Below, one piece after another: positions 1,321-8,517 of a DNA stretch of 64,000 nt (its first letter is position 1; every line of letters begins with the position of its first letter). A program made the position numbers and the translations under genes. A model generated the notes under the pieces. The model searched no databases. It saw nothing but the letters and a program-made list of their open reading frames with translations, and had not been told where the DNA came from. This DNA comes from Bacteroidales bacterium. Its GTDB lineage: Bacteria > Bacteroidota > Bacteroidia > Bacteroidales > F082. The DNA lies in NCBI GenBank assembly GCA_017539045.1, contig JAFYHS010000015.1, positions 1-64,000 on the forward strand. The letters run 5' to 3'.

Positions 1321-2637
1321 TCAAAACGGAGCATAATCTTTTAAAAATATGACAGAGAAATCATCCGCATCTCGGAATTCATTTGTGATGATGCTTTTAT
1401 CTATCGGAAAAGTTTCTTCTGCAAGTTGCAAGAGTTGTTCCCAACTCCAATCCAAGTAAGTCTTGAAGTTGCTTTTTAGCAATTGGATGGTATCGGCCTG
1501 ATTGTATTCTTTCGACAAAAAGTCCGGTATGTTCAGTTGAAGGCGCTTGTTCCACAAAAGGAATTTCATGATGGTGCTTGTGTTGCCAGTGTTGCTAAGT
1601 GCCCAAATCATGTATTGCATGCCAGGCAGAAAAGTTAGAGACGGCTTGTGGTTAAGTAGCAACGACAAATAGTATCCGTAATTGTCATAAAAATCTCCGA
1701 TGGAATAATAGACTTTCTCTTCCCAATACTCCGTATGGTAATTTGGCGGTTGGTATCCATTCGTCAGACAGTGTAGGATATGACCGAAAAGCAAGTCTTC
1801 TGCCTCAGTTTGGTCAAGGTGGAGGTGGTTGCTTGCAATGATGCGGCAATACTCTTTGCGTGATAGCCTATACTTGTCGATCATGAAATCATTGTCCGAT
1901 GCAAGACGCAGGCACAATGACAAATAATCCGTCTCCCCAATCTCAAATTCATGTGACAACACATAATCCAAAGGGAATCTGTGTGCAATGACTTTTAGAC
2001 AATTGGGTTCCCTGAAAGTCTGCCAATTCCGTTCAATATCAGGAATGATGGCATCGTCCCACCATTCCGGCAACAATTTCAAATAGCAGATACTTCTGGT
2101 AAAACTGTCTGCTGTAAGCAAGGCTTTCATGATAAAGATTTGGCAGTCGTGCGTTTGTGCAAAAAATCGTTTCTCAAGCTCAATACACGCATCTTCTTTT
2201 TCCTTCTCATTGCCTTGGTGGAAGATTTTCAGAAGCGTTTCGATGGGCTCATTTTCCCTTAATGGCTTTGGCTGATTGGAAGAAAAATTAATGTCTCCAA
2301 CATCCGTTACAATCACATGTTCAGTCAGCTTTTTCAAGAACTTTTTGAACGCTTCGGGATGCTTTTCCTCCAAATACGACCAATTGTCCTTCATTAAAGT
2401 GTCTTTGTCAAATCCGAATTCCTTAAAAAAGGACTCGGGCAAATTGTCGACTATTTCTTGGATAATTAAATAATCCTCCTCATCGAGAGCGATTTCGTCA
2501 ATGCCTTTTTTGAAGTTCTCCTGCATCTGAGCTTTGTGCTTCTTCATCTGGTTGAGTTCATCCGAATCTATCAGGTTGAGCTCTTTTTTCAGGTGCTCGG
2601 TGAGGTCTGCGAATTTCTCGGCGGGGTTGTCACTCAT
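1321..2637 (-). CDS. Hypothetical helical protein, accessory region
   Basis: A 438-residue protein of unknown function. The start at 2637 (MSDNPAEKFADL) is chosen over an in-frame start nine codons upstream because its ATG overlaps the stop of the small membrane protein gene (ATGA). The protein has no signal peptide or membrane segment, is rich in charged residues, and looks all-helical: an N-terminal amphipathic region to about residue 120, then HEAT- or TPR-like helical stretches with many Trp, Tyr and Leu. No catalytic motif was recognised. Coupling to a two-helix membrane protein suggests that the two act together at the inner membrane, but this is only inferred from gene order. Confidence 0.7.
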   Translation of the reverse strand: MSDNPAEKFADLTEHLKKELNLIDSDELNQMKKHKAQMQENFKKGIDEIALDEEDYLIIQEIVDNLPESFFKEFGFDKDTLMKDNWSYLEEKHPEAFKKFLKKLTEHVIVTDVGDINFSSNQPKPLRENEPIETLLKIFHQGNEKEKEDACIELEKRFFAQTHDCQIFIMKALLTADSFTRSICYLKLLPEWWDDAIIPDIERNWQTFREPNCLKVIAHRFPLDYVLSHEFEIGETDYLSLCLRLASDNDFMIDKYRLSRKEYCRIIASNHLHLDQTEAEDLLFGHILHCLTNGYQPPNYHTEYWEEKVYYSIGDFYDNYGYYLSLLLNHKPSLTFLPGMQYMIWALSNTGNTSTIMKFLLWNKRLQLNIPDFLSKEYNQADTIQLLKSNFKTYLDWSWEQLLQLAEETFPIDKSIITNEFRDADDFSVIFLKDYAPF

Positions 2638-2825
2638 TGGTTTTCGTTTTTGTCTTTTTTCCAAACGGCGCGAAGCCCGCCGATGAGTGCTGCAAACAAA
2701 ATGATACCGAAAATGCCAGGAGTAGCTGCTCCAGCGTCATTTCTTATTCCAGAAACAACTGCTGATAAGATAATGAAAACGACGACGATAATGATTGTGA
2801 CGATGATTTTTGTACCTTTTTCCAT
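2634..2825 (-). CDS. Small two-helix membrane protein
   Basis: A 63-residue protein starting MEKGTKIIVT with two hydrophobic helices (about residues 6-26 and 34-52) and a basic tail. The ATG at 2825 is preferred to a start 18 codons upstream because a -7 element (2866-2873) sits inside that longer reading frame. The stop overlaps the start of the 438-residue protein by four bases, so the pair should be translated together. The family is not recognised. By size and topology it resembles small membrane partners that anchor a cytoplasmic protein, which is an inference only. Confidence 0.65.
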   Translation of the reverse strand: MEKGTKIIVTIIIVVVFIILSAVVSGIRNDAGAATPGIFGIILFAALIGGLRAVWKKDKNENQ

Positions 2826-2865
2826 GATTGAAATGTTTTTGCGTTGATAATTGTTATTTGTGCCG

Positions 2866-2873
2866 CAAAAATA
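2866..2873 (-). promoter_or_regulatory. -7 element TATTTTTG upstream of the small membrane protein
   Basis: Minus-strand TATTTTTG matches TAnnTTTG and would start a transcript about 35 bases before the ATG at 2825. No clear -33 TTTG is seen. It suggests that the two genes from 2825 to 1321 form a unit separate from the block upstream. Confidence 0.45.
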
Positions 2874-2900
2874 GTTCAACCCGTTTTTTGCCTCCGATTT

Positions 2901-4088
2901 TCACAAGGCTTGCCAATCTACTAATTCACGAGGCAAGGTGATTTTCTTTGGCTCTCCACGCTTGCCCGTAATGTAGTAATGTTGAGCGTAAGCGGTATCG
3001 AAATGTTTCAGGAACGCTTCTCGTATTCTCGAACATTTTTCATTGATGGAGTTTTTGGTCGGGTCGGTAATGTCACCAATGCTGTTAATTATGTTTTCTT
3101 CAATCTCTCTGTTGCCAACATGCTTGTATATTTCCAGTAATTCAGGGAAGTAGTTGTTCAAATGTTTGAATGGTATTCCTTCCGGGTGTTGCAGAAACAA
3201 GAAGAATACCGCTTTGGGGAGAGGTTGCATGGTAATCTCGATGTTGCTGTAATCAGGAAGGAATATCCTATAATCTTTATCGATAACCAAACGGCTCAAA
3301 GTGGGTCGTTCTTCGACAAGTTCATGCAAAAGGTGTAGTTGAACACCTCTTTTTCTCAGTTCGATGATTCTTTGCCGTACTTCATCCGTCAAATCATCAA
3401 TGCTTTTGTCTGCAAACAGGATGTTGTCGCTGCCATCGTTGAAATAATGGTCGGCAACATCATCTTTGCTTTTGGGCTTTGACAAGGCATTGAAAGCGGT
3501 TTCCGATTCACCTCGATAACTGAAAGTGAGATGTTTCAAATAGTTTTCAAATTGGTCAGTGAGGGGTGAAGCAGCAACCAGCGGACGATATGTGTAATAA
3601 TAGTTGATGGGATTTTTGGCCTCCATCCGAACGAAGTGGATCAATGCAGGACCTTCAATGCTTCCGGAAAGAATGTGGCTTTTCAGCGTTTCAATGGTAA
3701 GGTCGCCATTTACAAATGAGGATGTCTGTTGCAGAAAAGGAAACATATAATGAAGCACCTCTTTGGAAACCTCCTGACCGCAAAGCTTTGGCAAATAGAT
3801 AAAAGTCGCCTTTTTTGAAAGGAACTGCTGCTGGATTTCCTCGTAGTGCTTTTGGATATACCCATTGATGGCGGGGTCATATTCGTTTTCCACATAAATC
3901 ACATCGTGAACATCGGGGGTAAAGGGAAGGTTGAGGTCGAATAGGAGAAATGTTTGTTCATTGGCCGTGTCATGCTGTTCAGCCAAGGAAACAAATCTTT
4001 TATGCTTGGTCTTTCTCGCACGATTGAAAAACAGCAAGGCGAGAAGGATAGCAGCAGATATGGATAGTATCAAGATGAAGGTCGACAT
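2901..4088 (-). CDS. Membrane-anchored protein with a possible C-terminal winged helix
   Basis: A 395-residue protein with one N-terminal membrane helix (about residues 3-21) followed by the basic run RARKTKHKR, which places the C-terminal bulk in the cytoplasm. The middle is unassigned. The last 110 residues (MQPLPKAVFFLFLQHPEG, then NSINEKCSRIREAF and YYITGKRGEPKKITLPREL) follow the helix pattern of OmpR-type winged-helix domains, in which a recognition helix precedes a short beta-hairpin wing. That reading rests on pattern memory, not alignment. The gene lies 12 bases downstream of the 85-residue gene in a tight leftward series with the TerB-like and helicase genes, so a shared role is likely. 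Confidence 0.6.
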   Translation of the reverse strand: MSTFILILSISAAILLALLFFNRARKTKHKRFVSLAEQHDTANEQTFLLFDLNLPFTPDVHDVIYVENEYDPAINGYIQKHYEEIQQQFLSKKATFIYLPKLCGQEVSKEVLHYMFPFLQQTSSFVNGDLTIETLKSHILSGSIEGPALIHFVRMEAKNPINYYYTYRPLVAASPLTDQFENYLKHLTFSYRGESETAFNALSKPKSKDDVADHYFNDGSDNILFADKSIDDLTDEVRQRIIELRKRGVQLHLLHELVEERPTLSRLVIDKDYRIFLPDYSNIEITMQPLPKAVFFLFLQHPEGIPFKHLNNYFPELLEIYKHVGNREIEENIINSIGDITDPTKNSINEKCSRIREAFLKHFDTAYAQHYYITGKRGEPKKITLPRELVDWQAL

Positions 4089-4100
4089 ATTGCTTTAAAC

Positions 4101-4358
4101 TCATAATCCCCATAATGCTTTCGATGCTTCAAACCAAGCTTCTCTAGTCGAAATCTCATTATCCTTTTGTTCCCGAGTCAAATTTGGATTACTTTCAATA
4201 TTGCGTTTCATTTGCGCTTTGAAGAACTCCATTGTTTCTCTTGCTTGGTCTTTAGTGATGAATTGGCCGCCAAACATGTTGTATAAGAACTTTGCGAATC
4301 CTTGTGAATGTGCGGCCATCTCTAATTGGTGTATTTGTGCTTTTTTGTTATCGGTCAT
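4101..4358 (-). CDS. Small hypothetical protein
   Basis: An 85-residue soluble protein, probably helical, with no signal peptide or membrane segment. It lies 11 bases after the TerB-like gene and 12 bases before the membrane-anchored gene, so it is almost certainly part of that operon. Recognisable features are limited to a central KDQARETMEFFKAQMKR helix and a Trp-containing C-terminus (REAWFEASKALWGL). I do not recognise the family and propose no function. Confidence 0.6.
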   Translation of the reverse strand: MTDNKKAQIHQLEMAAHSQGFAKFLYNMFGGQFITKDQARETMEFFKAQMKRNIESNPNLTREQKDNEISTREAWFEASKALWGL

Positions 4359-4369
4359 GTTCCCAAATA

Positions 4370-4684
4370 TTAGTGGTTAATTACTTGTAAATCGTTTATT
4401 ATCTTTAATTCGCTTTTGTGAATGAAACCATCGACTTTGGACATTTTCACAAAATACTCTTTGGCCATATTTTGTTTCTCCACATCCATCATTTTAAACT
4501 CATTCTTTAGTACATCGAAATCAAGCATTTCCATGTGGTCAAATTCGGCAGTTGAAAGGCCGAAGTCCTTCATCAGAGATTTGATATATTCAACTTCCTT
4601 GGGGTGAATAACTGAATCAGCCTCCATTATCATTGTGAGAAGATGTAGTATTGTCCTTTTTTCGTGTTCGCTAAACTGCTTCAT
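4370..4684 (-). CDS. TerB-like (tellurite resistance B fold) protein
   Basis: A 104-residue helical protein with the TerB-type pattern: an N-terminal helix ending in an acidic turn (LTMIMEADSVIHPKEVEYIK, about residues 15-34) and a second similar turn (KVDGFIHKSELKII) near the C-terminus. These DxxIxxxE turns resemble the metal-binding loops of TerB domains. Such domains recur beside helicases and membrane proteins in stress and phage-response loci. The ATG overlaps the stop of the helicase reading frame (ATGA, 4681-4684), showing translational coupling with it. It is a stand-alone domain, not a full ter cluster: no TerC, TerD or TerZ is present in the window. Confidence 0.7.
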   Translation of the reverse strand: MKQFSEHEKRTILHLLTMIMEADSVIHPKEVEYIKSLMKDFGLSTAEFDHMEMLDFDVLKNEFKMMDVEKQNMAKEYFVKMSKVDGFIHKSELKIINDLQVINH

Positions 4685-5913
4685 GCTTCTATGCTGTTTG
4701 TAAAGAAATTGTGGTATTTATTGTTACCCAAATTTAGAATGAAAAGGTTTCGCTTCGCTCGTGTGATAGCAGTATAAACTAGTGCTGGAGAGTTCTCGTT
4801 TTCAATGACATTGTACACATCGTCTTCTATCGAACCTTCAGGCTGGAGTATTAGTATAACCGTGGGAGACTCCCACCCCTTAAAACTATGTATTGTAGCC
4901 ATCTTAACACCATCGTGGTCTATTGTAAAGTGGACTTTTTTCACTCGTCGAATGCTGTCAATATCCGACTTTGGCCACTTGCTAACTGCTTGTATTCTAT
5001 CATACTCTACTTTGGTTTCAAATGTTGTGATTGGCGGTTTGCCTCCACTTTTAATGTAAACATCCTCGATGTTTCGTAGGACACTACAGGTCTGCGAAAG
5101 AATAGTAACATCTCGTTGGTTGAGTTTGAACTCGTTGAGTAACCAAAAGATATTTGAACATAGCGTTTCTGCCGTGACATTCTTTCCAACATTCCAGTAT
5201 TTTATATAGAATTGCTCAAAAGGCATTATGCTTTGCTGTACCAAAGGTTCTGAATAATCAAAAAACGATTCTTGGAAGAGGGTAGAAAGCCGGGTGATTT
5301 CAGGGTTTTCAATTCGGAAAGCGATGTTTGAATTGTCGTTTATTTGAGTCCAAGGACCTGGCATTCCAGGAATCCGTGGCATGTGGTGCTCGTCCTGTTG
5401 TCTACTATATATGTTTTGCCTTCCGTCCCCAAAAACAACGAATTCGCCACCCTCTTTGAGGAAGTAGTTTTTAATTAAAAGGAGCCAAGCGTATCTATAA
5501 TCTTGTGCTTCATCAAAAAGGATCGTATCATAACGAATGGTGTTATTTTTGAATTTTTCAAAGAAGGTCTCATTATCCCAATCGTCAATGTAGGGCTTTA
5601 GATTGTGGTTGTTCGCTTGCGACTTAAAAAACTGATGATAGTTTGTTATATCAAATAACCCCCAGTTAAAGTCGGCGGCGACCTGTCCCATTCTGTATTT
5701 AATATAGTTTACCAAGGTGAGGTTAAATGTCAACACAAGCACTCGACCTCCAGTTCTGACTTGAGCATTTACTGCTCGCCAAGCAAGAACTTGCGTCTTT
5801 CCCGATCCTGCAACGCCTTTGATTTTTTGTTCAACACTTTTACTTTGTGCTAATTCACGTTGCCTTTTTGTTGGAGTAATACTCTCATCACCTTCTTTAT
5901 AACTATGCCAACC
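4681..5913 (-). CDS. UvrD/Rep-type superfamily 1 helicase part, in frame after a TAG
   Basis: 410 codons encode a compact SF1 helicase: Walker A GVAGSGKT (about 33-40 codons after the TAG), Walker B ILFDEAQD, a Q/GD motif FGDGRQNIYSRQ, motif V TIHSFKGWESPTVIL and motif VI YTAITRAKRNLFIL. The region follows directly, and in the same frame, the TAG that ends the methyltransferase-like part. Between that TAG and the Walker A motif there is no ATG, GTG or TTG, and the first usable start (GTG at 5742) would remove Walker A. An intact helicase can therefore be made only by reading through the TAG or from a non-standard start. In related proteins the Walker A region is preceded by NERD-like sequence on the same chain. 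Either a recent nonsense mutation or a recoded stop is possible. Confidence 0.75.
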   Translation of the reverse strand, partial: GWHSYKEGDESITPTKRQRELAQSKSVEQKIKGVAGSGKTQVLAWRAVNAQVRTGGRVLVLTFNLTLVNYIKYRMGQVAADFNWGLFDITNYHQFFKSQANNHNLKPYIDDWDNETFFEKFKNNTIRYDTILFDEAQDYRYAWLLLIKNYFLKEGGEFVVFGDGRQNIYSRQQDEHHMPRIPGMPGPWTQINDNSNIAFRIENPEITRLSTLFQESFFDYSEPLVQQSIMPFEQFYIKYWNVGKNVTAETLCSNIFWLLNEFKLNQRDVTILSQTCSVLRNIEDVYIKSGGKPPITTFETKVEYDRIQAVSKWPKSDIDSIRRVKKVHFTIDHDGVKMATIHSFKGWESPTVILILQPEGSIEDDVYNVIENENSPALVYTAITRAKRNLFILNLGNNKYHNFFTNSIEA

Positions 5914-5916
5914 CTA
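5914..5916 (-). other. In-frame TAG joining methyltransferase-like and helicase parts
   Basis: Codons on both sides are in the same frame (start positions share the same remainder modulo 3), and the 57 codons after the TAG up to position 5743 contain no stop. Reading 7194 to 4681 with the TAG treated as a sense codon gives one 837-residue protein. Confidence 0.85.
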
Positions 5917-7194
5917 ACTGGTAATCAGTTCAAGTACATTTTTGCATAAATCATCATTGAAGTATTTATTCTCCCAAGAAAGATTAAGTTTACTGATAAG
6001 GTCTTCAGATAAAATATCTTCTCTATAAATACGGATGGCATATTTGTATTTGTTTTCGTCTACGCCAATTCTCTCCCCATCTTTTTCTGTAGGGAAGAAA
6101 ACCGCTTGTTTTATGGCTGTCCAGTATGATGGATTCAACAAGGCTTTTCCAAAAACATCTCGTAGATGTACATTATACAGATTTCGCTGATAAATTTCCG
6201 TTCGTTCAAATTGAGCTTCCGCATTCGTTATGTCATTACAAACATTGAAGATGAGAACTCCGATCTTGGGTCGTATCACTACAATGTCTGGCACATCCGT
6301 CGAAATATGAGGCTGAATGAATATGCTGTCGGCATCAGTCAATTTTGCGCGTATGGCATTATAGGCATTTAGGATATTGCCGTTTACAATTCCCCTCAAT
6401 GATTCCGCAACATAGCTGTAATCATCAATGAATTTGTTTGCTTTTGCCTTTTCTACATAATTCTCATTGATATCATTGGAGGTCAGAGAGAAACACATCG
6501 TTTCACATCCATATGGATGGTGAGTTTCCGTATAAGCATACGGGTATTGTGAAAATCTTGAAAAGATAGTTTTCTTTTGGAAATATTCACCAAAGTCAGA
6601 GATGCGGCTATTTTCTCTAAAAGCAGGACCAACACACACTATATACTGTTGCTTCGCGTATCCTGCAACTTTTTTTGCCAATCCCCTCAAACTAAACGTC
6701 CAAATATCAAGGATGTTTGAAAAAAGATGAATGGCAATAGGAGTAGATGATGTAACTTCGGACAACTCATTGAACTCTTCTGAATCTGGAATACATTTAT
6801 TGACAGCAACAACTTCAATTGTCTGGCTTACCACACGTTTTACGAATGACAATGCTCTTCGTAAGGCGGGTTCTGAAGGCTCAATGAGTGTTATTTTTTT
6901 CAATCCATACACCTTCCCATGTTCTTTTAGCATATCAAACAACGTGAGTGATGCGATGCCTTGACCACAGCCCCAATCTACAATCTCAAAATTGGTCAGA
7001 TTCTCGAATGGAAAATTCTGCAATGCCGCTCTGCACTTGATAAAATGCATTTCTCCGTATGCTGCAATGTATGCATTCAGTTGATCTTCAGTCTGTAAAA
7101 TAGCTCTACCGTGGTCTGTCACATCCCATGGTCGTGCTTTCATGTTTTCGGGAAGTTGCGACTTGCAATATTTTATTAGTTCTTGGGTGTCCAT
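5914..7194 (-). CDS. Methyltransferase-like protein with NERD-like region (N-terminal part of split gene)
   Basis: A 426-residue product from ATG 7194 (MDTQELIKYC); an alternative ATG lies five codons upstream at 7209. Residues about 66-110 hold a Rossmann methyltransferase signature: EIVDWGCGQGIASLTL for the SAM loop and ITLIEPSEPALRRAL for the following acidic strand. Residues about 290-325 (FIQPHISTDVPDIVVIRPK then GVLIFNVCN) resemble the core of NERD/PD-(D/E)XK nuclease domains, but the E-x-K usually found at the end of that motif is missing. The frame continues after the stop as a UvrD-type helicase. The gene lies one base after the YhcG-tail gene and is part of the leftward operon ending near 2901. 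The methylation target is unknown. Confidence 0.7.
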   Translation of the reverse strand: MDTQELIKYCKSQLPENMKARPWDVTDHGRAILQTEDQLNAYIAAYGEMHFIKCRAALQNFPFENLTNFEIVDWGCGQGIASLTLFDMLKEHGKVYGLKKITLIEPSEPALRRALSFVKRVVSQTIEVVAVNKCIPDSEEFNELSEVTSSTPIAIHLFSNILDIWTFSLRGLAKKVAGYAKQQYIVCVGPAFRENSRISDFGEYFQKKTIFSRFSQYPYAYTETHHPYGCETMCFSLTSNDINENYVEKAKANKFIDDYSYVAESLRGIVNGNILNAYNAIRAKLTDADSIFIQPHISTDVPDIVVIRPKIGVLIFNVCNDITNAEAQFERTEIYQRNLYNVHLRDVFGKALLNPSYWTAIKQAVFFPTEKDGERIGVDENKYKYAIRIYREDILSEDLISKLNLSWENKYFNDDLCKNVLELITS

Positions 7195-7210
7195 TGTCAA
7201 TAAAATCATT

Positions 7211-7471
7211 TTACAGCAGTTTCTTCAATTCCTCAATGTCCGGCAAGGCTTTCCGCAGCTCCTCTGGCATTTCGGCTGTGGTTTTGTATGTGGCCACGCC
7301 CATGGGTTTGCAGTCCTTCAATTCGGCAATCATGATTGCCGAATTAATAACTGCTTGATTATCATTATTCTGAAAATCGACAATTGCAATTGGCGAATTA
7401 ATGCTCAATTCGTCGGTTATGACCGATGAATTTGGAATTACTGCCTTGTTGTATGTCGCAGGTTGGTTCAT
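7211..7471 (-). CDS. Small protein with YhcG/DUF1016-like C-terminal tail and repeated N-S units
   Basis: An 86-residue protein starting at 7471 (MNQPATYNKAV); the start is chosen because a -7 element (7491-7498) lies just upstream and would cut a longer frame. The last 30 residues (KPMGVATYKTTAEMPEEL then PDIEELKKLL) match the conserved tail of YhcG/DUF1016 nucleases, where it follows the catalytic domain, yet no nuclease domain is present here. The middle has three units of the form N-S-x-x-x-x-x-[DE]-[LF] (NSSVITDEL, NSPIAIVDF, NSAIMIAEL), each encoded by a palindrome of about 26 bases. It could be a relic of a larger gene, a repeat-built protein, or a short regulator. It heads the operon that continues into the split helicase gene. 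Confidence 0.55.
   Translation of the reverse strand: MNQPATYNKAVIPNSSVITDELSINSPIAIVDFQNNDNQAVINSAIMIAELKDCKPMGVATYKTTAEMPEELRKALPDIEELKKLL
7320..7432. repeat. Three palindromic 26-base units inside a coding sequence
   Basis: Unit 7320-7345 is a perfect palindrome with half-site AATTCGGCAATCA. Unit 7407-7432 has the same AATTC...GAATT ends and one mismatched pair. Unit 7374-7399 has two mismatched pairs. All three lie in the same frame of the 86-residue protein and encode its N-S units. Confidence 0.7.
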
Positions 7472-7490
7472 GTGCCTTGTTTTTGATGTG

Positions 7491-7498
7491 CAAATATA
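7491..7498 (-). promoter_or_regulatory. -7 element TATATTTG for the operon starting at 7471
   Basis: Minus-strand TATATTTG fits TAnnTTTG and lies about 20 bases before the ATG at 7471, at the very end of the DUF1848 gene. No clear -33 element is seen. It supports 7471 as the start codon and an operon separate from DUF1848. Confidence 0.5.
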
Positions 7499-7500
7499 GA

Positions 7501-8517
7501 TTATTTCCCCGTTATCGTTTCTGATTTCCAATGGGTTTCTTTCGCTCTTTCCCTATTCCTCACAGCCACATCCTTACTCGCATTAGCATAGCAATACTCG
7601 CACAAATGCGGGCAGGTGTTGTACTCGCCGATGTCCTTGCTCACGATGCAGCCGCAGAACTGCCGTTGGCCTTTGTCGCGGTTGTCCTTTTTCTTGACGA
7701 TTTCCGTTCCGAACAAGGATTCCTTCACCTCCACGCCGAGAAAGTCCATCAAAGCCTTGTCATGGTGGGCGAAGCGAATCATCAGGTCGTCGTCAATGCA
7801 GCGGTTGTGCTCCACACCATCAAGATTGGCAGCCTCACCACAGGTGGCCAAGGCATAGTTCCAGCCTTTCGCTTTGTTCAACTCTACCAACTGTTTGGCG
7901 AACCACACCATCTGTTCCGGCAACCATTCCGAATAATTGATGTTGCTCTTTTCAAGATTGGCCTTCACTTTCTTGTATAAACCAATATCGGCATAACTGA
8001 AAACAAGTTTCTCCGTGTAGCCCTTCAGTTGGTCACCGGTGCTTTCCACTTTTCTTAACAGGTCGTCCATGCTGATTTGGTCAGTCAGAATCAAAGGGTC
8101 GAATCGCCAAATCACACGGCCTTGGCCCAATTGATCCACCAGCCTTTTGAAGGTGTCTATTCTTTTCTCCAACGACGGCACGCCCTTTTCCAAGCCTTCT
8201 CTCTCATAGTCGTTCAGTGTGTATTGGATGTAGCAGCCGATGTTCTTTTCTTTCAGTTCGTCCAAATGCCCAAGCAACGGCTCCGGGTTCTTCGACCAAA
8301 ACACGATGAAACGGCATTTCTCATACGAAACGAAACTCTTCACACCATTGAAGGGATTGGTCCATGCAGAATAGCCCACCTTCAGCCGATGAAAGAACCA
8401 GTCGGCATAGAAAGCGGGAATGTCCGTGCTTCGGCTTGCGGAGATGATAACAGGGGCTTGCGCCTCTGCCATCATGCCGTTATCGCGCTGGATTTGTGTC
8501 TTTTGCCATTGGGCCAT
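7501..8517 (-). CDS. DUF1848 family protein with radical-SAM-like cysteine cluster
   Basis: A 338-residue protein of the DUF1848 family. The N-terminal half carries the family core (ISASRSTDIPAFYADWF, about residues 26-42, and FIVFWSKNPEPLL), and the C-terminal part ends with a cysteine cluster: CGCIVSKDIGEYNTC followed by CPHLCEYCYAN near residue 310. The last piece has the CX3CX2C spacing that binds the 4Fe-4S cluster of radical SAM enzymes, unusually placed at the C-terminus. The substrate is not known for the family. The gene has its own -7 element upstream and is transcribed toward the operon starting at 7471. A second start at MMAEAQ (8475) is possible. Confidence 0.85.
   Translation of the reverse strand: MAQWQKTQIQRDNGMMAEAQAPVIISASRSTDIPAFYADWFFHRLKVGYSAWTNPFNGVKSFVSYEKCRFIVFWSKNPEPLLGHLDELKEKNIGCYIQYTLNDYEREGLEKGVPSLEKRIDTFKRLVDQLGQGRVIWRFDPLILTDQISMDDLLRKVESTGDQLKGYTEKLVFSYADIGLYKKVKANLEKSNINYSEWLPEQMVWFAKQLVELNKAKGWNYALATCGEAANLDGVEHNRCIDDDLMIRFAHHDKALMDFLGVEVKESLFGTEIVKKKDNRDKGQRQFCGCIVSKDIGEYNTCPHLCEYCYANASKDVAVRNRERAKETHWKSETITGK

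Follow-up and report, generated by a model that had tools for sequence, protein, structure and literature searches.

A private break or an error, rather than recoding, at a lone in-frame TAG in an apparently mobile Bacteroidales helicase gene

In the first 64,000 nucleotides of contig JAFYHS010000015.1 from a Bacteroidales bacterium (assembly GCA_017539045.1), the stretch of DNA that we analysed and refer to as the window, a minus-strand gene encoding a methyltransferase-like domain, a NERD-like region and a UvrD-type helicase is interrupted by one in-frame TAG codon. We propose that this TAG is a real, very recent and lineage-private nonsense mutation in a recently exchanged accessory gene, and that translation ends there; we place the probability of this reading at about 0.57. 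Our overall verdict is that the TAG represents a private break (or an error) in a recently moved accessory gene, and not recoding. As such the TAG is ordinary: it shows an accessory gene lost, or apparently lost, through a single base, and it cautions that a single TAG of this kind in an assembly should not be taken for recoding. More interesting is the gene family, in which a putative methyltransferase-like domain travels with a DUF1848 protein and the C-terminal part varies between genomes.

The interrupted gene and its nearest relatives

The gene and the segment that carries it are laid out as follows (L002 and L004 are two of the relatives described below).

4681..7209, minus strand: the whole TAG-interrupted frame, encoding a methyltransferase-like domain, a degenerate NERD region and a UvrD/superfamily 1 (SF1) helicase (from open reading frames (ORFs), domain searches and alignment)
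5917..7209, minus strand: N-terminal half, with the S-adenosylmethionine (SAM)-binding-like motif VDWGCGQG and then the NERD-like region (profile searches, alignment)
5914..5916, minus strand: in-frame TAG, in the linker directly before a (W)HSYxxG stretch (alignment with relatives)
4684..5913, minus strand: helicase half, with Walker A, DEAQD and C-terminal UvrD motifs (profile searches) and no standard start ahead of Walker A
3966..7272, strand not given: apparently recently exchanged segment, with 4 differences from L002 and a close match to L004 from about 4190 to 7246

A reading of the sequence alone had claimed that one TAG splits such a gene in frame; this is borne out, on the minus strand, which that sequence-only reading had omitted. 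The N-terminal ORF runs from the ATG at 7209 to the TAG at 5916-5914 (431 aa), or 426 aa from the ATG at 7194, which is the start that matches that of the relatives. Past the TAG, its sole interruption, the frame is open until a TGA at 4683-4681. The TAG is separated by 57 sense codons from the first in-frame ATG, GTG or TTG (a GTG at 5742), and Walker A (GVAGSGKT) occupies codons 33-40 past the TAG, so that a complete helicase cannot begin at a standard codon after it; the frame check thus confirms both earlier claims, of 57 open codons and of no independent standard start. Among CTG, ATT, ATC and ATA, only ATT (codon 12) and ATC (codon 31), both rare start codons, precede Walker A in frame. 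The 410 open codons past the TAG exceed chance: of the 41 ORFs in the window that reach 150 aa, only one has a longer stretch after its stop, and that one (903 codons) is, by coordinates, the next gene with its own start. Codon usage over the 57 codons that follow the TAG, in contrast, scores -12.6 (rank 39 of 41) and does not favour coding; since the GC content of the gene is 38.9% compared with 49.6% for the window, window-trained codon usage is a poor guide here.

The decisive evidence for a putative single interrupted gene is homology. A scan of the genome contigs with the N-terminal half returned six loci, with best-segment identities of 100% (L002), 99% (L004), 90% (L003), 77% (L005), 69% (L006) and 63% (L007), and the collection of viral contigs added two more (L082 and L083, both 82% identical to L003), giving eight fetched relatives. 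All eight have a sense codon at the position of the TAG, which encodes Lys in seven (L002-L006, L082 and L083) and Ser in L007. Seven are one unbroken frame of 836-842 aa, the exception being L004, which has its own one-base deletion near the gene start (window position 7041) on a contig whose title gives a coverage of 1.87. More distant relatives align at this linker position with a gap or a different residue, just ahead of the (W)HSYxxG stretch. Judged from these alignments, the residue lost to the TAG is common but not strictly conserved, and the helicase motifs after it are conserved. A search of the viral contigs for the TAG-position codon with any first base matched only the two contigs already known. 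A distant NERD/UvrD relative from an Enterobacter plasmid (L084, 1399-3363) is split in its annotation into two genes that share a frame and are separated by 26 codons; a Leclercia plasmid has a single gene in the corresponding place.

The nearest copies indicate how young the change would be. L002 is the sequence of genome G018 (100% over 4,230 bases), which belongs to another species of the same genus, and L004 appears to be that of G038, listed under another family of the same order. Between 3966 and 7272 the window differs from L002 at four sites only (4671, 5437, 5916 and 6380), while 11 to 53 bases (5.5-26%) differ in each 200-base bin from 1400 to 3799, and upstream of 7272 the alignment survives only at window positions 7428-7507, at 83.5%. 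Likewise, the window and L004 show 18 differences from 4190 to 7246 (about 0.6%) as against 45 in the bin 4000-4199 alone. This near-identity within divergent flanks points to a recent exchange between lineages of a segment of about 3.0-3.3 kb, carrying the fused gene, a TerB-like gene and an 85-aa ORF; it is also possible that contigs were misbinned.

When polarised by L004 and L003, the differences at 5437, 5916 and 6380 are changes on the window side. Within the gene, the private changes are therefore a synonymous one (5437), a missense one from Asp to Gly (6380, at a residue that is Asp in 7/7 relatives aligned) and the TAG itself (5916). Given the near-identity to L002 and the sense codon in the relatives, the TAG is either a consensus error or a single-base change that is very recent and private to the window. 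Both a newly broken gene and an assembly error, as entertained in the sequence-only reading, hence gain support from the comparison.

Explanations for the TAG

Under the reading that we favour, the accessory gene would have been exchanged recently between Bacteroidales, after which a codon that is usually Lys, in the linker that joins the NERD-like part to the helicase, would have mutated to TAG. Translation would stop there and yield a methyltransferase/NERD-like fragment of 426-431 aa, and no helicase would be made because no standard start codon lies ahead of Walker A. We infer three further points: living cells carry the mutation, the interrupted system is inactive, and the intact system serves in defence against mobile DNA. 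Nonsense changes make up 5.0% of all single changes in the ORF, which gives a 14% chance of at least one among three without selection; no special mechanism is therefore needed, and an unselected real mutation is plausible.

Several observations weigh against this reading. The frame shows no further decay: apart from the TAG, its private changes are the synonymous and the missense one. No Asp or Ile tRNA is named in the genome, meaning that the tRNA set is incomplete and that its missing members may include one that reads TAG. Finally, two copies of a stretch of at least 4,092 bases, 100% identical, are present in the assembly.

This doubled stretch, in an assembly of 43 contigs that is 80.9% complete, makes assembly error a live rival. 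The TAG would then be a consensus, assembly or mixed-strain error and the organism would have a sense codon, a serious possibility that we nevertheless do not favour. It would agree with the sense codon in the nearest copies, and the one-base deletion in the sister copy from G038, with its low stated coverage, shows how such breaks can arise in assemblies. Simple arithmetic speaks against it: if all three private differences in about 2.5 kb were errors, dozens more would be expected in 64 kb, some of them gene-breaking, and no other split gene is seen in the ORF coordinates of the window (for five other stops, which are followed by 88 to 255 open codons, this judgement rests on coordinates, and no gene was compared with relatives).

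Decoding of the TAG, by a suppressor tRNA, genetic code 15, pyrrolysine or programmed read-through, would yield the full-length protein, and we consider it very unlikely. In its favour, the frame of the helicase half remains open and closely matches that of L002, but a change so young explains the open frame without decoding. A tRNA model search of the 80.9% complete genome, with ARAGORN run over all 42 places found, gave no CUA anticodon at any of the 42, and a profile search found no match to PylS in this genome; the PylS model matched 13 of 14 control genomes, over the cut-off in one, and hence only the empty result in the own genome is used. The release factor RF1 (prfA) is present, over the curated cut-off, at two places with identical DNA. 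TAG serves as an ordinary stop elsewhere in the window, ending two ORFs besides the interrupted one among the 40 complete ORFs of at least 150 aa (3/40), and none of the eight fetched relatives has TAG at the site. Suppressor tRNA, loss of RF1 and pyrrolysine are thus rejected as far as an 80.9% complete genome allows, and the suggestion in the sequence-only reading that the TAG is decoded finds no support. Its other suggestion, of phase-like switching, is not supported either: phase variation by repeat slippage would change a repeat tract, and the difference from the relatives is one substitution, not an indel or a change in repeat length. The doubled stretch is the one that bears prfA (L119 and L120, on contigs C27 and C41), and may be a true repeat or a duplicate made in assembly.

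The least credible explanation is that the locus is two genes and that the helicase is made separately from an unusual start after the TAG, for which the in-frame ATT and ATC ahead of Walker A and the distant Enterobacter plasmid pair annotated as two genes in one frame could be cited, but seven of the eight close relatives are single unbroken genes, the eighth is broken elsewhere, two-gene homologues are absent among these eight, and a new start would have had little time to evolve since so recent a change of one base.

Domains, neighbours and the gene family

The helicase half scores over the Pfam cut-offs for Viral_helicase1, UvrD-helicase, AAA_19 and UvrD_C, and matches the PADLOC NERD+UvrD model C3a187 at E=2.8e-29. 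Alignment with unfused NERD-UvrD proteins places the region before the helicase opposite their NERD part, and a weak profile match to C3a187 (E=5.9e-4) covers residues 285-324 of the N-terminal half. Pfam yielded no match to NERD, and a NERD search of the own genome matched another contig only. The E-x-K motif of NERD is catalytic; as E-V-K, it is kept in all three unfused relatives (L042, L043 and L085), and it is replaced in all four fused ones (L003, L007, L041 and L086). Because of this replacement the NERD-like part is probably not a working nuclease. The label NERD-like given by the sequence-only reading thus holds by alignment, with the nuclease site replaced.

A tblastn search of plasmids with L003 returned 20 records, in none of which did a single place cover 80% of the query. 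Nine match from residue 275-296 to 824-836, seven of which are annotated as NERD or nuclease-related; another nine match only from residue 430 or later, and two only in the N-terminal domain. A tblastn search of phages returned a single record, a gut contig that encodes a full-length relative at 35.5%.

Within the first ~250 residues is a D-x-x-C-G-Q motif, which we take to resemble motif I of SAM-dependent methyltransferases. The motif is present in 15/15 rows of the alignment, the rows themselves having been picked by its pattern; the pattern gave no ORF in 6 of the 22 loci tried (L060, L061, L066, L070, L073 and L074), and the alignment holds 15 of the 17 ORFs picked, leaving out a truncated ORF from L041 and a degraded ORF from L081. 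Methyltransf_23 was matched by 7 of the 15 members at E up to 0.1 (best 0.00037), with every methyltransferase score shown below the Pfam cut-off, and the best PDB match of the domain was YecO (E=0.0089).

The gene is surrounded by the following features.

4370..4684, minus strand: TerB-like gene overlapping the helicase stop, directly downstream in 9/9 close loci, window included
4101..4358, minus strand: 85-aa ORF, present only in L002 and L004 among 10 loci compared with the window
7211..7531, minus strand: 106-aa ORF whose last ~33 codons match the C-terminal end of a YhcG (DUF1016) nuclease, itself intact in L004
7501..8517, minus strand: DUF1848 gene with CxxxCxxC near its C-terminus (PF08902, 294 bits; PADLOC RTasDUF1848, E=1.5e-38)

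The close loci are the window and the eight fetched relatives. DUF1848 lies upstream in eight of the nine, L002 being the exception; the match in L004 is without the first 51 residues, and the Radical_SAM match of the window gene is below the cut-off. In L004 and L006 a YhcG nuclease sits between DUF1848 and the fused gene, and the window ORF at 7531-7211 is apparently a remnant of a gene of this type. Trypsin-like protease genes occur nearby in L003, L006, L041 and L086.

The helicase half was matched in 7 of 60 relatives, over nearly its whole length in four (the own genome G000, G018, G038 and G023). The N-terminal half was matched in 23 of the 393 genomes of the order, the own genome included, in the NERD-like part only in G070 and weakly in G117, G161 and G221. 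DUF1848 was matched in 80 of the 393 (77 over the cut-off), and the two lie at most 5 kb apart on one contig in 16 of the 23 matching genomes, again with the own genome included; among the other seven, DUF1848 is on another contig in two and was not matched in five.

A profile of the methyltransferase-like domain matched 6 of 296 genomes of the phylum, three of them strongly (G000 itself, G502 and G708). The C-terminal partner of the domain is a DEAD helicase in L059, leucine-rich repeats (LRR) in L062 and L065, and Sel1 repeats in L071, L072, L073 and L080; in L064 the LRR protein is the next ORF, in L065 DUF1848 is itself fused to the domain, and in L068 (253 aa) the domain is without any C-terminal partner. 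No Pfam match was obtained for L063 or L069. A gene on a Moraxella plasmid (L122, 3878-4720) also matches the domain; a second gene, ~3.2 kb away, carries the annotation of an antiviral radical SAM protein of the viperin family.

A domain that keeps one companion gene and exchanges its C-terminal part between genomes is typical of conflict systems. This pattern, seen here for the methyltransferase-like domain and DUF1848, suggests a putative modular conflict system. We tentatively propose, at a little under even odds, that a modular and mobile conflict or defence system of Bacteroidales and relatives is built around DUF1848 and the methyltransferase-like domain as its core. Its swappable modules would include a degenerate NERD-UvrD, a DEAD-box helicase, BspA-type LRR and Sel1, and its accessories a TerB-like protein, a trypsin-like protease and a YhcG nuclease; a nonsense mutation would have inactivated the window copy shortly after its transfer. 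The YhcG, TerB-like and trypsin-like neighbours, together with the exchange between lineages, make an antiviral role of the family possible. A literature search found no description of such a core as a conflict system, and, in the library searched, no paper naming DUF1848 or PF08902, though PADLOC has a DUF1848 model among its reverse-transcriptase-associated genes.

Comparison with known systems

An in-frame TAG is common to this gene and to the TAG-recoded gut phages that use code 15, as presented in the cited part of PMC9523058; here, by contrast, the TAG stands alone on a bacterial contig, in a genome where no suppressor tRNA was found and RF1 is present.

The gene also resembles several defence systems. 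It shares SF1 motifs with Gabija GajB and other UvrD-like helicases, and GajB models match the window helicase at 1.5e-14 and weaker, but no GajA-like match occurs among the eight window proteins scanned. Similarly, the helicase half matches RTasNERD-Hel (E=9.9e-14) of the PADLOC reverse-transcriptase-associated systems (DRT), whereas the same eight proteins include no match to a reverse transcriptase. In the part of PMC12839542 cited here, NERD features as the nuclease of PglW and its relatives, with no mention of TerB, DUF1848 or trypsin. With the candidate defence protein of PADLOC C3a187 (NERD+UvrD), finally, the window gene has in common the helicase and the NERD region that precedes it. 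It differs in ~270 extra N-terminal residues with the methyltransferase-like domain, in belonging to fused proteins without E-x-K, and in being flanked by DUF1848 and TerB-like genes.

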